Part shown: in pieces, positions 2,703 to 61,203 of the stretch
Layout: every line of letters starts with the position of its first letter
Position numbering within the stretch: the first letter of the stretch is position 1
Source of the DNA: Candidatus Celerinatantimonas neptuna
GTDB lineage: Bacteria > Pseudomonadota > Gammaproteobacteria > Enterobacterales > Celerinatantimonadaceae
NCBI GenBank assembly: GCA_911810475.1
Contig: OU461276.1
Coordinates: forward strand, 3,659,501 to 3,723,500
Length of the DNA stretch: 64,000 bases
Reading direction: 5' to 3'
Made by a program: the position numbers and the translations under genes
The notes under the pieces: generated by a model
What the model was told of the DNA's origin: nothing
Databases searched by the model: none
What the model saw: only the letters and a program-made list of their open reading frames with translations

Positions 2703-4133
2703 GTGTCTAAAACCTTACCAGAAGAATTTATTCAATTAGTTCAAAAATCATTACCTAACGAAGAAAATTTCACAAAATTTATAGAGTATTGCCAGCGCCC
2801 CCTTCGCAAGAGCATCCGGGTTAATACGCTCAAAATTTCTGTTTCTGATTTTGTCCGGAGGATGTCTGCAAAAGGATGGGAATTAACTTCAATTCCCTGG
2901 TGTCCAGAAGGGTTCTGGCTGCAAAGAGATGATGAAACCCTCCCTCTTGGCAATACTCTGGAACATATAGGCGGTCTATTTTATATTCAGGAAGCAAGCT
3001 CAATGCTGCCAGTAACGGCCCTCTTCACTCACCTCAAAGAAAATTCTGATCTTTTAATTCTTGATGCAGCAGCAGCTCCAGGATCCAAAACGACGCAAAT
3101 TGCAGCACATCTACAACAACAAGGTGCAATTGTTGCAAATGAATTTTCAGCCAGTCGAATTAAAGGGTTATTTTCCAATTTACAGCGATGCGGTATTGCT
3201 AATGTTGCTCTAACTAATTATAACGCCGATGTATTTGGTAAATGGCTGCCCGAAACTTTTGATGGAATATTACTCGATGCGCCCTGTTCAGGTGAAGGAA
3301 CTCTTCGCAAAGATCCCCAGGCCTTAGATAACTGGAGTCTTAAACATGTTCAGGAGATCGCCACACTGCAAGGCACTCTACTCAACAGTGCACTGCGAGC
3401 ACTAAAACCGGGTGGAATATTAATCTATTCTACATGTACATTGAATAATTTTGAAAATCAGCAAGCGGTTTTAAATATTTGTAATCATTTTCATCAATCT
3501 TTAGAAGTACTAAATCTAAAAACTCTTTTCCCTTCAGCCGACAAAGCGTTAACCAAAGAAGGTTATCTACACATATGGCCTCACTTATATGATTGTGAGG
3601 GTTTTTTTGTTGCAGCATTAAGGAAAAAAACAGAAATCCCCATTGAACCCTGTGTTAAAAAAGTGAAGCCTCTTCCCTTTTATCCGGCCACTAAAAAACA
3701 AGCTGATTCAGTATTGCAGCATCTTCGAAAACAATTCGGCTTAGAGCTTGAGCCTTCTTATGGAAAACTCATGACTCGCGAGAATGAATTTTGGTTGTTT
3801 CCACAAAAAATTATATCTATGACTGATGAAATCAGATTTGATCGTATAGGACTCAAGCTAGCCGTTCAATTTCGTAAAGAATTCAGACTAACCCATGAAG
3901 CAGCTAGCCGGTTTGCACCACAAATGACTCAGAATATTCTTGAGTTGCCTATAGATCAGGCAGAAGCTTTTATTCAGGGGAAAGACATAAAATATGATCA
4001 GGGGGAACAAAAAAATGGGGAAGTTATTCTGGTGTGCCAACAAGTAACATTGGGTATAGGGAAATGGCTCAAAGGTAAAATTAAAAATAGATTACCAAGA
4101 GAACTGGTCCGGGACGTGATTGAGTTTAAATAA
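2703..4133 (+). CDS. rsmF: 16S rRNA m5C1407 methyltransferase RsmF
   Basis: SAM-dependent RNA methyltransferase (E. coli RsmF/YebU) that modifies C1407 of 16S rRNA; 476 aa, close to the E. coli length. The N-terminal RsmF domain (RPLRKSIRVNTLKIS) is followed by the Rossmann core with the SAM motif AAAAPGSKTT. The two catalytic cysteines are in the LDAPCSGEGT and YSTCTLN motifs. The C-terminal PUA-like region ends in PRELVRD as in E. coli. The start is GTG at 2703: an in-frame TAA lies 12 bp upstream and no better codon is available. The Shine-Dalgarno is poor. It is a single-gene unit ending in a terminator. The E. coli neighbours yebS/yebT are absent. Confidence 0.95.
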   Translation: MSKTLPEEFIQLVQKSLPNEENFTKFIEYCQRPLRKSIRVNTLKISVSDFVRRMSAKGWELTSIPWCPEGFWLQRDDETLPLGNTLEHIGGLFYIQEASSMLPVTALFTHLKENSDLLILDAAAAPGSKTTQIAAHLQQQGAIVANEFSASRIKGLFSNLQRCGIANVALTNYNADVFGKWLPETFDGILLDAPCSGEGTLRKDPQALDNWSLKHVQEIATLQGTLLNSALRALKPGGILIYSTCTLNNFENQQAVLNICNHFHQSLEVLNLKTLFPSADKALTKEGYLHIWPHLYDCEGFFVAALRKKTEIPIEPCVKKVKPLPFYPATKKQADSVLQHLRKQFGLELEPSYGKLMTRENEFWLFPQKIISMTDEIRFDRIGLKLAVQFRKEFRLTHEAASRFAPQMTQNILELPIDQAEAFIQGKDIKYDQGEQKNGEVILVCQQVTLGIGKWLKGKIKNRLPRELVRDVIEFK

Positions 4134-4189
4134 ACTGGCAAAACCGAATTGTATGTCTACACTTATTGTGTTGGTAATAATTAGCGCAA

Positions 4190-4246
4190 GGCCCTCGCGG
4201 GCCATTCCCCTAAGCCCGAAGCAAGGAATAGCATCGGGCTTTTTTT
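4190..4246 (+). terminator. Rho-independent terminator after rsmF, preceded by a second hairpin
   Basis: AAGCCCGA (4212-4219) pairs with TCGGGCTT (4234-4241), followed by a T-run. Just before it, GGCCC-TCGC-GGGCC (4190-4203) forms a second small hairpin. The rest of the gap to ycfH (4247-4480) holds nothing I recognise. Confidence 0.85.
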
Positions 4247-4480
4247 CTGCCTATATCAATACATTAAGAGTCCTACAAATAATTAATCAAAAGCAGATAA
4301 CGATATAAATTCTACTCGGAATCATAAAGCCTTTTCTGATAAAAATGGAGACAGGTATATTATTCAATTCATTCACTATAGAAAGCCGATGGTAGCCTTA
4401 AGTCCCACATCAAAAGCAAACCAGACAATCATAAATGGACTTCATCTAAGCTTAGGCAATTAATTGTCTCAGATCACAGC

Positions 4481-36618: not shown

Positions 36619-36780
36619 GAAAGACCAAAAATGAATAATTTTGTTATCAACCACCATCATCACCATCATTTTCCCGAATAGGTCTTTCAGGAGAGTATAT
36701 GCTGGGAGACTCGATGAGCTTCCAGTGGTTGAGACAAATTAAAAAACCCCGGAAGGTCATCCTTCCGGGGTTTTTTAATT
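36619..36780 (+). promoter_or_regulatory. his operon transcription attenuator
   Basis: GAAAGACC (36619-36626) can pair with GGTCTTTC (36681-36688) across the leader peptide. A second hairpin (CTGGGAG...CTTCCAG, 36702-36727) follows. The terminator is a perfect 16-bp stem, 36741-36756 with 36761-36776 (core CCCCGGAAGG), ending in a T-run 24 bp before hisG. Together with hisL this is the classic His attenuation layout. Confidence 0.93.
36631..36681 (+). CDS. hisL: his operon leader peptide
   Basis: 16-codon peptide, MNNFVINHHHHHHFPE, with six consecutive histidine codons. Ribosome stalling at these codons when charged tRNA-His is low should prevent the terminator from forming. E. coli HisL has seven histidines and the same length. 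No strong Shine-Dalgarno is seen upstream. Confidence 0.95.
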   Translation: MNNFVINHHHHHHFPE

Positions 36781-58633: not shown

Positions 58634-59637
58634 TATCCACCTACCGATGCAAGATGAATGGTTTGACCCGGATTATGTTGATGTAGATAATGCTTAGGAC
58701 GTTTATGACTTAATGCTTCAAAAATTGTGTCGCGCAGTATAACAGGATCTTCACAGGCCAAAGCTGAACGCAGATCAAACCCATCTTCACCAAAAAGACA
58801 CAAATGGAGTTTTCCTACAGCGGAGATACGTAATCGGTTACAACTATCACAAAAATTCTGTTCATAGGGTAAAATCAATCCAATCTTAATCCGATAATCC
58901 GGATGAACAAAAACTTCTGCCGGACCTGCATTTTGCACTTTTTCCAATAAGGTCCAACCGCGCTGAACTAACAGGGTTTTAAGTTCCTGACCACTCACAT
59001 GTTCTTTCTCAAATAGCACCCTCTGCTCGAGGGTTTCCATCAGTTCAATATAACGAAGCTCAACTGGCCAATCTTTCAATCGTTCAAGTGTTTGCAGAAA
59101 ATCATTAAAATTAAATGAACGCATTAAGACTGTATTGAGTTTTACATCCAGCCCACAAACGATTGCCGTATCAATACCATCCAGAACTTTATGGAAACTA
59201 TGTGTCCCTGTAACCTGATTGAATAATTGCTCATCAAAACTATCGATACTGATATTCACCCTTGATAATCCCGCGCATTTCCAGTTGCGAGCATTTTGAG
59301 CTAATCTGAATCCATTGGTTGTCATTGCAACGGTCTCAACCCCCGGGGTCCTTGCACACAGCTCAATAATGGTATCAATATCTTTTCTTAGTGTCGGCTC
59401 TCCGCCTGTAAGACGGATTTTGGTGGTGCCTGCACTGGCAAAGACATCAACGAGTTGTTTGATTTCAAACAAAGATAAAAATTGAGGACGAGTCTGAGGT
59501 CGCTGATACCCATTGGGGAGGCAATAGCGGCACTTAAAATTACAAACGTCCGTAACCGATAAGCGGAGATAGCTAAATCGGCGATTAAAATGATCGGTAA
59601 ACATCGAAACCTTTCCAAAGTCGGGAGGCATAGTCAT
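58633..59637 (-). CDS. moaA: GTP 3',8-cyclase MoaA
   Basis: Radical SAM enzyme for the first step of molybdopterin synthesis. 334 aa. N-terminal [4Fe-4S] cluster motif with Cys32, Cys36 and Cys39 (CNFKCRYC), C-terminal cluster CDSCNRLRISAVGKLHLC, and the GG-containing C-terminus. ATG 59637, GGA upstream. Starts the moaA-mobA-moaB-moaC-moaD-moaE unit. I looked for the Moco riboswitch in the 215-bp upstream gap and did not see one. Confidence 0.96.
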   Translation of the reverse strand: MTMPPDFGKVSMFTDHFNRRFSYLRLSVTDVCNFKCRYCLPNGYQRPQTRPQFLSLFEIKQLVDVFASAGTTKIRLTGGEPTLRKDIDTIIELCARTPGVETVAMTTNGFRLAQNARNWKCAGLSRVNISIDSFDEQLFNQVTGTHSFHKVLDGIDTAIVCGLDVKLNTVLMRSFNFNDFLQTLERLKDWPVELRYIELMETLEQRVLFEKEHVSGQELKTLLVQRGWTLLEKVQNAGPAEVFVHPDYRIKIGLILPYEQNFCDSCNRLRISAVGKLHLCLFGEDGFDLRSALACEDPVILRDTIFEALSHKRPKHYLHQHNPGQTIHLASVGG

Positions 59638-59852
59638 TTCTTCCTATACCTTGTCTGCTTTTTAGCAGAGGTACATTGTCCATATCACTTGTTCGTGATG
59701 AAGGCTCAAAATACTCGGTTTGCCTTAAAATCTGAGAATATGCTACTTTTATTAATAGGCTATCAAATTCAGAATAATTCTGTTCTAAATGCATATAAAT
59801 GAGTTTTCGATATGATACTCAAATCTGATGGCTCTGTCTAAGGAGGTTAACG

Positions 59853-60552: not shown

Positions 60553-60664
60553 TACAAAAAAGCCCGGCCACAAGCCGGGCTGCCATTGGCAATAACTACA
60601 GGAGTCTATGTCAAGGGAGTGACATACAACACAATAAGTATTAGCACAGAATAATCCGAGTAAC
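60553..60664 (-). ncRNA. Candidate small RNA (~110 nt) with a C-rich loop
   Basis: Predicted transcript on the minus strand. Promoter: TTAACA (60699-60694), 18-bp spacer, TACAAT (60675-60670). It ends in a strong terminator, AGCCCGGC / GCCGGGCT then T. Within it TATGTCA-CTCCCT-TGACATA (60626-60607) forms a perfect 7-bp stem with a CUCCCU loop, the kind of exposed seed that binds Shine-Dalgarno sequences. No known sRNA family recognised. Inference only; not tested. Confidence 0.42.
60555..60581 (-). terminator. Strong minus-strand terminator with no gene immediately upstream
   Basis: AGCCCGGC (60581-60574), loop, GCCGGGCT (60568-60561), then TTTTTT on the minus strand. The nearest minus-strand gene ends 254 bp away with a MITE between. 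Confidence 0.85.
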
Positions 60665-60688
60665 GAACTATTGTAGGTGTTACTCCTA

Positions 60689-60822
60689 GGGCGTGTTAAC
60701 GTTTGACGATAGTTTTGCAACTTTTTGCTGTTTATTTAGACAAAGCTGGTTCTGTGCCGTGTAGCCTTGATCAAGAGGCGATTTATTTGAACAAAATTCA
60801 ATGACCAAACGTCAATACACCC
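60689..60822. mobile_element. MITE-like element with imperfect terminal inverted repeats and TA flanks
   Basis: 134 bp. Left end GGGCGTGTTAACGTTTGACG and the reverse complement of the right end GGGTGTATTGACGTTTGGTC match at ~16 of 20 positions. TA dinucleotides lie on both sides (60687-60688 and 60823-60824), consistent with TA target duplication. Inside there is no ORF. Looks like an internally deleted, non-autonomous IS; the parent family is not identified. Confidence 0.6.
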
Positions 60823-60834
60823 TAAGATAAAGAA

Positions 60835-61203
60835 TTAATAAAACTTCGCCGAATCTTGCTTAATTTGATAATAACGTACAATAATGTTCTGATATGAACA
60901 CTGGCGATTCGAACGATGACAAACGTCAAATATAGCCTGATTCATGATTTTCTGATTATGCAGATGAATCGCTTTATTAAAAGCCTGACGTTCAAGAAAT
61001 TCATATCGCTTCATCTCTTCATGGTTACAGTGCAGCTGGGTATCTGATGAATGACAATAACGCGCAACTGTATTTTTATGAATATATTGATTCAGCTCTT
61101 GATTCATTTGTGCTGAACCATCAAAAACAGATGGATTAACAAATGCTGACCACACTGGAAACGCAGCACATAACAATATAAGCCACATGATCTGTCGCAT
61201 CAT
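60835..61203 (-). CDS. Small secreted protein of unknown function
   Basis: 122 aa with a signal peptide (MWLILLCAAFPVWSA-F) and a mature part with cysteines in pairs (RYCHSS, LHCNHEE, DVCHRS, RQCSYQ), suggesting a disulfide-bonded periplasmic protein. Not recognised. ATG 61203; alternative ATG 61200. Its stop is 12 bp from the right end of the MITE. No obvious operon partner. Confidence 0.72.
   Translation of the reverse strand: MMRQIMWLILLCAAFPVWSAFVNPSVFDGSAQMNQELNQYIHKNTVARYCHSSDTQLHCNHEEMKRYEFLERQAFNKAIHLHNQKIMNQAIFDVCHRSNRQCSYQNIIVRYYQIKQDSAKFY

Follow-up and report, generated by a model that had tools for sequence, protein, structure and literature searches.

Introduction

Hfq-dependent trans-acting small RNAs (sRNAs) of Gammaproteobacteria are about 100 nt long, lie between genes, end at their own terminator with a U-tract, and carry a conserved segment complementary to ribosome-binding sites. 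Gram-positive bacteria also carry sRNAs with C-rich (UCCC) segments, LhrC of Listeria reportedly being one of them. In Staphylococcus aureus, the Rsa RNAs and RNAIII are described in the cited account as having accessible C-rich (UCCC) segments, with predicted or shown pairing with translation start regions (PMC3861533). MITEs can take part in sRNA promoters: for CbsR16 of Coxiella burnetii, the -10 element is apparently derived from QMITE2, with the -35 element directly upstream (PMC5896051). Correia elements of Neisseria are MITEs with promoter activity (PMC5039591) and are reported near non-coding RNAs (PMC10969869). Celerinatantimonas, the genus of interest here, has nitrogen-fixing, plant-root members, and transcriptomes have been described for Ca. 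C. neptuna (PMC8636270).

The window analysed here is a stretch of 64,000 nucleotides from the marine bacterium Candidatus Celerinatantimonas neptuna. An initial annotation had proposed a minus-strand sRNA near one of its ends, with a CUCCCU hairpin loop complementary to Shine-Dalgarno sequence, a -35 element supplied by the end of a MITE-like element, and a promoter possibly created or changed by that insertion. The probable explanation of the locus as a whole is a genus-restricted, trans-acting sRNA that would pair with Shine-Dalgarno sequences through ACUCCUGU and would use a hybrid promoter in the window species. A real sRNA gene is very likely to be present on the sequence evidence, a view supported by its conservation at the same locus in Celerinatantimonas diazotrophica.

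Position, parts and predicted fold of the RNA

The minus-strand terminator, the TACAAT and the TTAACA of the initial annotation are all found in the sequence where they had been placed, and the perfect 7-bp stem with loop CUCCCU is present at 60626-60607. The features of the locus are listed below, in positions of the window.

60556..60663, minus strand: predicted sRNA of about 108 nt, its start placed from TACAAT and its end being the last T of the tract
60648-60556, minus strand: conserved RNA body, with its counterpart at L013:1382-1480 in C. diazotrophica
60634..60648, minus strand: 5' block UGUGCUAAnnCUUAU, the same at 13 of 15 positions in both species
60607..60626, minus strand: hairpin UAUGUCA-CUCCCU-UGACAUA, with a 7-pair stem of which 6 pairs occur in both species
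60597..60616, minus strand: segment CCUUGACAU(A/U)GACUCCUGUA, the most conserved part, 19 of 20 positions identical
60561..60581, minus strand: stem of the Rho-independent terminator, 9 pairs, 7 of them G-C, with the T run at 60561-60556
60670..60675, minus strand: candidate -10 element TACAAT, outside the MITE
60694..60699, minus strand: candidate -35 element TTAACA, inside the MITE terminal repeat
60689..60822, no strand assigned: internally deleted MITE-like element of 134 bp, with TA at 60687-60688 and 60823-60824

In both species the T run consists of six T, the first of which closes the terminator stem, leaving five unpaired T. The fold of 60665-60553 has an energy of -33.8 kcal/mol (z -2.8), a value equalled by 5 of 200 shuffles and supplied in large part by the terminator. 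Terminator-like sites in the surrounding 4 kb number 4, against a shuffle mean of 2.7. A role as a leader is unlikely, since the minus-strand ORFs between the RNA and moaA are all mechanical entries of the ORF list, of at most 82 aa.

Other RNA elements were seen in the same window. An SdsR/RyeB sRNA lies at 4149-4247 (plus strand) with SraC/RyeA on the other strand (4132-4251, minus), and a histidine operon leader at 36657-36779 (plus). A molybdenum-cofactor riboswitch stands before moaA in both Celerinatantimonas species, at 59592-59732 (minus strand) in the window and at L013:2195-2338 in C. diazotrophica.

Conservation at the sister locus

In C. diazotrophica DSM 18577 the RNA lies between a LON-domain gene and a cupin gene, with gene order and strand matching those of the window. 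Neither the MITE nor the 122-aa gene of the window occurs at that locus. The sister RNA has the sequence UGUGCUAAACCUUAUAAUGUAUGUCAUCAUUACCUUGACAUUGACUCCUGUA, followed by the terminator, and adjoins the LON-domain gene. Comparison of the locus with and without the MITE, which had been put forward as a check, thus finds RNA and terminator kept where the element is missing. The genus sample comprises two Celerinatantimonas genomes, and positional conservation rests on this one relative. The adjoining protein genes led to the sister copy; searching the two genomes with the nucleotide sequence returned matches in the window species' own genome alone and missed it. The protein-neighbour route can therefore find an RNA homologue that escapes both Rfam and nucleotide searching of that genome.

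When the two intervals, of 950 and 377 bases, are aligned locally, the RNA is the piece selected, with a score of 34.5 against a maximum of 24.0 in 1000 dinucleotide shuffles; with the terminators removed, the score is 29.0 against a maximum of 25.5, again in 1000 shuffles. In a hand alignment of the two species, 48 of 67 ungapped positions 5' of the terminator are identical. Outside the RNA, the interval yielded no clear similarity between the species beyond a weak match in front of the cupin gene (equalled by 9 of 500 shuffles). Between the RNA body and the MITE border, the window has 40 bases that do not resemble the sister upstream region (155 of 500 shuffles equal); the wider stretch 60649-61203 does not resemble it either (144 of 500).

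All 15 named pairs, six in the hairpin and nine in the terminator, form in both species. Both partners have changed in two of them and a single partner in a third; all three belong to the terminator, the six hairpin pairs being unchanged. Paired cells amount to 100%, and to 14-43% once the partners are slid. These paired changes are suggestive, not strong, pointers to a structure kept in the terminator: the covariation consists of two pairs in two sequences, and one shuffle control does not discriminate, 130 of 500 shuffles reaching the observed values.

The hairpin loop differs between the species in both length and sequence, being CUCCCU in the window and UCAUUACCU in the sister. Of the earlier proposal, the sRNA gene is supported by conservation at the sister locus, and the Shine-Dalgarno-complementary loop is not conserved. 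The conserved C-rich piece is UUGACAU(A/U)GACUCCUGUA; it contains ACUCCUGU, the C-rich segment 3' of the hairpin that the initial annotation had named only in second place.

Range of the RNA family

A sequence model was run against a sample of 394 genomes of the order, a structure model against 12 genomes of the family; both recover one copy per Celerinatantimonas genome. As both models were built from these two copies, the E values of 1e-14 to 1e-22 describe their own source sequences, and the 394-genome run used stricter filters. Among the 392 other genomes of the order, the sequence model gave no convincing relative; it yielded 11 weak matches (E 0.016-0.093). Nine of these were dismissed as they span open frames of at least 280 codons, while the remaining two (L059 and L062), which have short frames only (at most 49 codons), were judged by eye and set aside. 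A structure-model match in another genome (G004, E 0.4) was dismissed for want of a T run.

The 18-mer TTGACATNGACTCCTGTA occurs with zero mismatches once in each Celerinatantimonas genome and is absent from the others among the 12 family genomes. Three matches with two mismatches in the family all lie in coding frames: two share a frame, presumably DnaE, and the third falls in a 265-aa, apparently regulator-like ORF. In public genomes the exact 18-mer occurs in 8 contigs, one being C. diazotrophica; in the 7 others it sits inside open frames of at least 165 codons, without flanking block or terminator. No match was found in plasmids (by DNA search), phages or E. coli.

The Rfam search, likewise put forward as a check, placed neither copy at the gathering cut-off of any family. 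The best weak match, anti-hemB, reached 21.4 bits against a cut-off of 49.5 (E 0.0044) and was taken as chance; in our judgement the weak Rfam matches are all of this kind, with the terminator as their main driver. A full-text literature search for small RNAs in the genus returned no paper. If expressed, the RNA appears to form a new sRNA family, so far confined to Celerinatantimonas. The kind to which it would belong, an sRNA with half of its promoter in a MITE, is already known, and it is the RNA family itself that appears new.

The MITE-like element and the candidate promoter

The element upstream of the RNA has terminal inverted repeats and TA flanks, is short, and is repeated, as is usual for MITEs. 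Targets of TA or CTAG type link such elements to IS630, the class in question being the IS630/Tc1-type MITE. Its ends are imperfect inverted repeats, and the window copy lacks the middle present in longer relatives of about 270 bp. Within its own genome, 48 further partial matches are among those listed (40 of 83 candidates scored), a count in which the two ends of one copy may figure twice. The matches listed involve query columns from 123 on (window 60675 and up), and none of them touches the RNA part, 60553-60674. A left-end pattern finds 14 copies in this genome at up to 3 mismatches. C. diazotrophica holds at least 40 long matches and one short match to the family (40 of 112 candidates scored), and two genomes from other genera of the bacterial family gave no match. 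The long C. diazotrophica matches listed are all 71-73% identical to one window-species copy; such near-equal distances suggest that the MITE may have expanded separately in the two species. Farther upstream, the 122-aa protein (60835-61203, minus strand) has an apparent signal peptide, judged by eye, and cysteines, with no Pfam or NCBIfam match; besides itself, it has one match, at 27% identity, among the 99 genomes searched.

TTAACA and TACAAT, separated by 18 bp, match 10 of 12 consensus bases. The surrounding 4 kb holds 7 promoter-like sites against a shuffle mean of 11.5, hence no enrichment, and with fewer such sites than chance the match alone means little. The promoter scores that follow come from approximate matrices. 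In the near upstream segment of 65 bases, 15 of 2000 shuffles score as high as the window promoter; over a wider region of 200 bases, 25 of 300 are as good, and the window promoter is not exceptional. The location of TTAACA in the end of the MITE-like element is borne out, the element being TA-flanked and repeated and the best -35 candidate lying there. Across 14 scored MITE ends (the window and 13 more), the outward promoter score is best in the window, at 9.5 against 6.7 for the next. The -35 position reads TCAACA in 10 of these 14 ends and TTAACA in 2 (the window and L136).

C. diazotrophica has no comparable promoter in the 70 nt nearest the RNA, where 1593 of 2000 shuffles do equally well. 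Farther upstream, its best sites stop 95-138 nt short of the RNA and do not surpass shuffled sequence, 153 of 300 shuffles matching them. A 9-bp inverted repeat, GGATTCTGT/ACAGAATCC, occurs upstream of the C. diazotrophica RNA at L013:1309-1341 and is a possible regulator site.

A MITE-supplied -35 element is plausible and unproven, and on the sequence we hold only tentatively, at somewhat less than even chances, that the -35 element of the window RNA lies in the MITE end. In the window species the RNA would then be transcribed from a hybrid sigma-70 promoter with a local -10 element and a -35 element from the MITE end. Because the RNA also occurs in the sister, whose locus has no MITE, the element is probably not the creator of the gene and has at most changed its promoter. 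Of the two options in the earlier proposal, creation is therefore unlikely and change remains plausible. The gene would predate the insertion, which would have replaced an older promoter; the difference between window and sister fits such a replacement without proving it. A possible but doubtful sequence of events is that the MITE and the 122-aa gene, which has no sister counterpart, displaced the old upstream region and that a change from TCAACA to TTAACA gave a new -35 element, leaving the same RNA under different control in the sister species. If the RNA is expressed, the MITE-bearing locus and its MITE-free counterpart lend themselves to studying the rewiring of sRNA promoters by mobile elements.

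Possible mechanism and target search

The preferred explanation envisages a regulatory RNA of about 100 nt, common to both genomes, that would be made from the minus strand, ended by its own Rho-independent terminator, and would act in trans by base pairing. ACUCCUGU is complementary to the Shine-Dalgarno-like ACAGGAGU. In the predicted folds of both species, the UCCU core is mostly unpaired (probability 0.68-0.96), and most of the conserved segment on either side of it is paired. For a segment that complements the ribosome-binding region and has a mostly unpaired UCCU core, the mechanism that suggests itself is pairing that represses translation: UUGACAU(A/U)GACUCCUGUA would cover Shine-Dalgarno sequences, with ACUCCUGU pairing with ACAGGAGU, and translation would be blocked. 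Hfq would probably bind at the 3' U-tract, the sole feature compatible with it. Judged from sequence, the chances of this pairing mechanism are about even.

The perfect 10-mer TACAGGAGTC has one other site per genome, within a coding ORF and, in one genome, on its antisense strand. CAGGAGT followed by ATG 2-10 bases on occurs 54 times per genome, counting the RNA locus; the reversed control gives 13 and 19. The excess reflects ordinary Shine-Dalgarno sites. The target search covered 50 loci out of these 108 places, and 20 of the 50 had been selected by eye, in part because their spacers agree between the species; the two RNA loci belong to the other 58. None of the 50 provides a convincing target. 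A frame of at least 35 codons is present at 26 of the 50. The single orthologous target pair seen, which we take to be ribosomal protein L10, pairs weakly (-13.6/-15.9 kcal/mol), and the strongest pairing in a single species reaches -28.8 kcal/mol with the window RNA and -20.9 kcal/mol with the sister RNA, at a gene that we take to be glucose-1-phosphate cytidylyltransferase (L101).

Alternative explanations

Another origin of the RNA, which we consider unlikely, would be the 3' UTR of the 122-aa secreted-protein gene: transcription would continue across the MITE, the RNA would be cut from the resulting mRNA, and the hybrid promoter would be accidental. The gene lies on the same strand (60835-61203, minus), its stop precedes the proposed start by about 170 bp, and from 60834 to 60582 the scan shows no terminator on the minus strand. 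Against this, it is unmatched in C. diazotrophica, where the RNA exists, and the window offers a separate promoter candidate. Such processing conflicts with the promoter part alone of the best explanation, so the odds of the two overlap. The hairpin, standing just past the stop codon of the plus-strand LON-domain gene in both species, might also be that gene's plain terminator with nothing else functional; yet both species carry the T run solely on the minus-strand side, and the 67 aligned minus-strand positions before the hairpin are conserved too, which leaves this account very unlikely. Read on the plus strand, TACAGGAGTC(A/T)ATGTCAAGG could combine a ribosome site with the start codon of a mini-ORF 3 or 4 codons long, AGGAG-TCN-ATG TCA AGG and then a stop occurring in both species. 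We regard this as extremely improbable, since the ORF is very short, the spacing is 3 nt, the plus strand has no T run, and such a complement is expected anyway of an antisense RNA aimed at start sites.

The conserved stretch could instead be a remnant or short gene, a piece of cysteine-rich coding sequence rather than an RNA gene. Translated in one particular frame, the two species yield similar peptides, CANTYCVVCHSLDIDSC.. and CAKPYNVCHHYLDIDSC.., with gaps that fit codon borders; 5 of the 17 changed codons in this frame are synonymous, a number reached by 738 of 5000 permutations, and its substitution score is reached by 167 of 5000, the other five frames scoring lower. These permutation values are, however, uncorrected for the six frames and for an alignment fitted to codons, and the changes are spread evenly over the codon positions (10, 9 and 12) rather than concentrated at the third. 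The C. diazotrophica frame has no ATG, GTG or TTG before the conserved part, the sole such start in the window sits inside the MITE, and the frame extends across the terminator. Pfam gave no match to the 82-aa window ORF, and plasmids gave none to the 31-residue peptide at E up to 1. A coding origin is accordingly very improbable, and a trans-acting sRNA gene remains our preferred reading.

Comparison with known systems

In size, intergenic site, terminator and conserved segment, the predicted RNA resembles Hfq-dependent sRNAs, with a putative role for Hfq here; it differs from the known ones in belonging to no Rfam family at the gathering score. Its likeness to the Gram-positive C-rich sRNAs carries no claim of homology. 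In those RNAs, as far as the source describes them, UCCC lies in conserved hairpin regions or loops, whereas here the loop drifts and the conserved C-rich piece is 3' of the hairpin. Correia, presumably an element unrelated to the MITE of the window, carries its promoters on the element itself in the accounts cited above, unlike the hybrid promoter proposed here. The closest parallel in arrangement is CbsR16, where, as in the candidate promoter of the window, a MITE gives one half of an sRNA promoter. Compared with CbsR16 as its source presents it, the halves are exchanged, the -35 element lying in the MITE and the -10 element outside it, and the RNA body, present in the sister without the MITE, is not MITE-derived.
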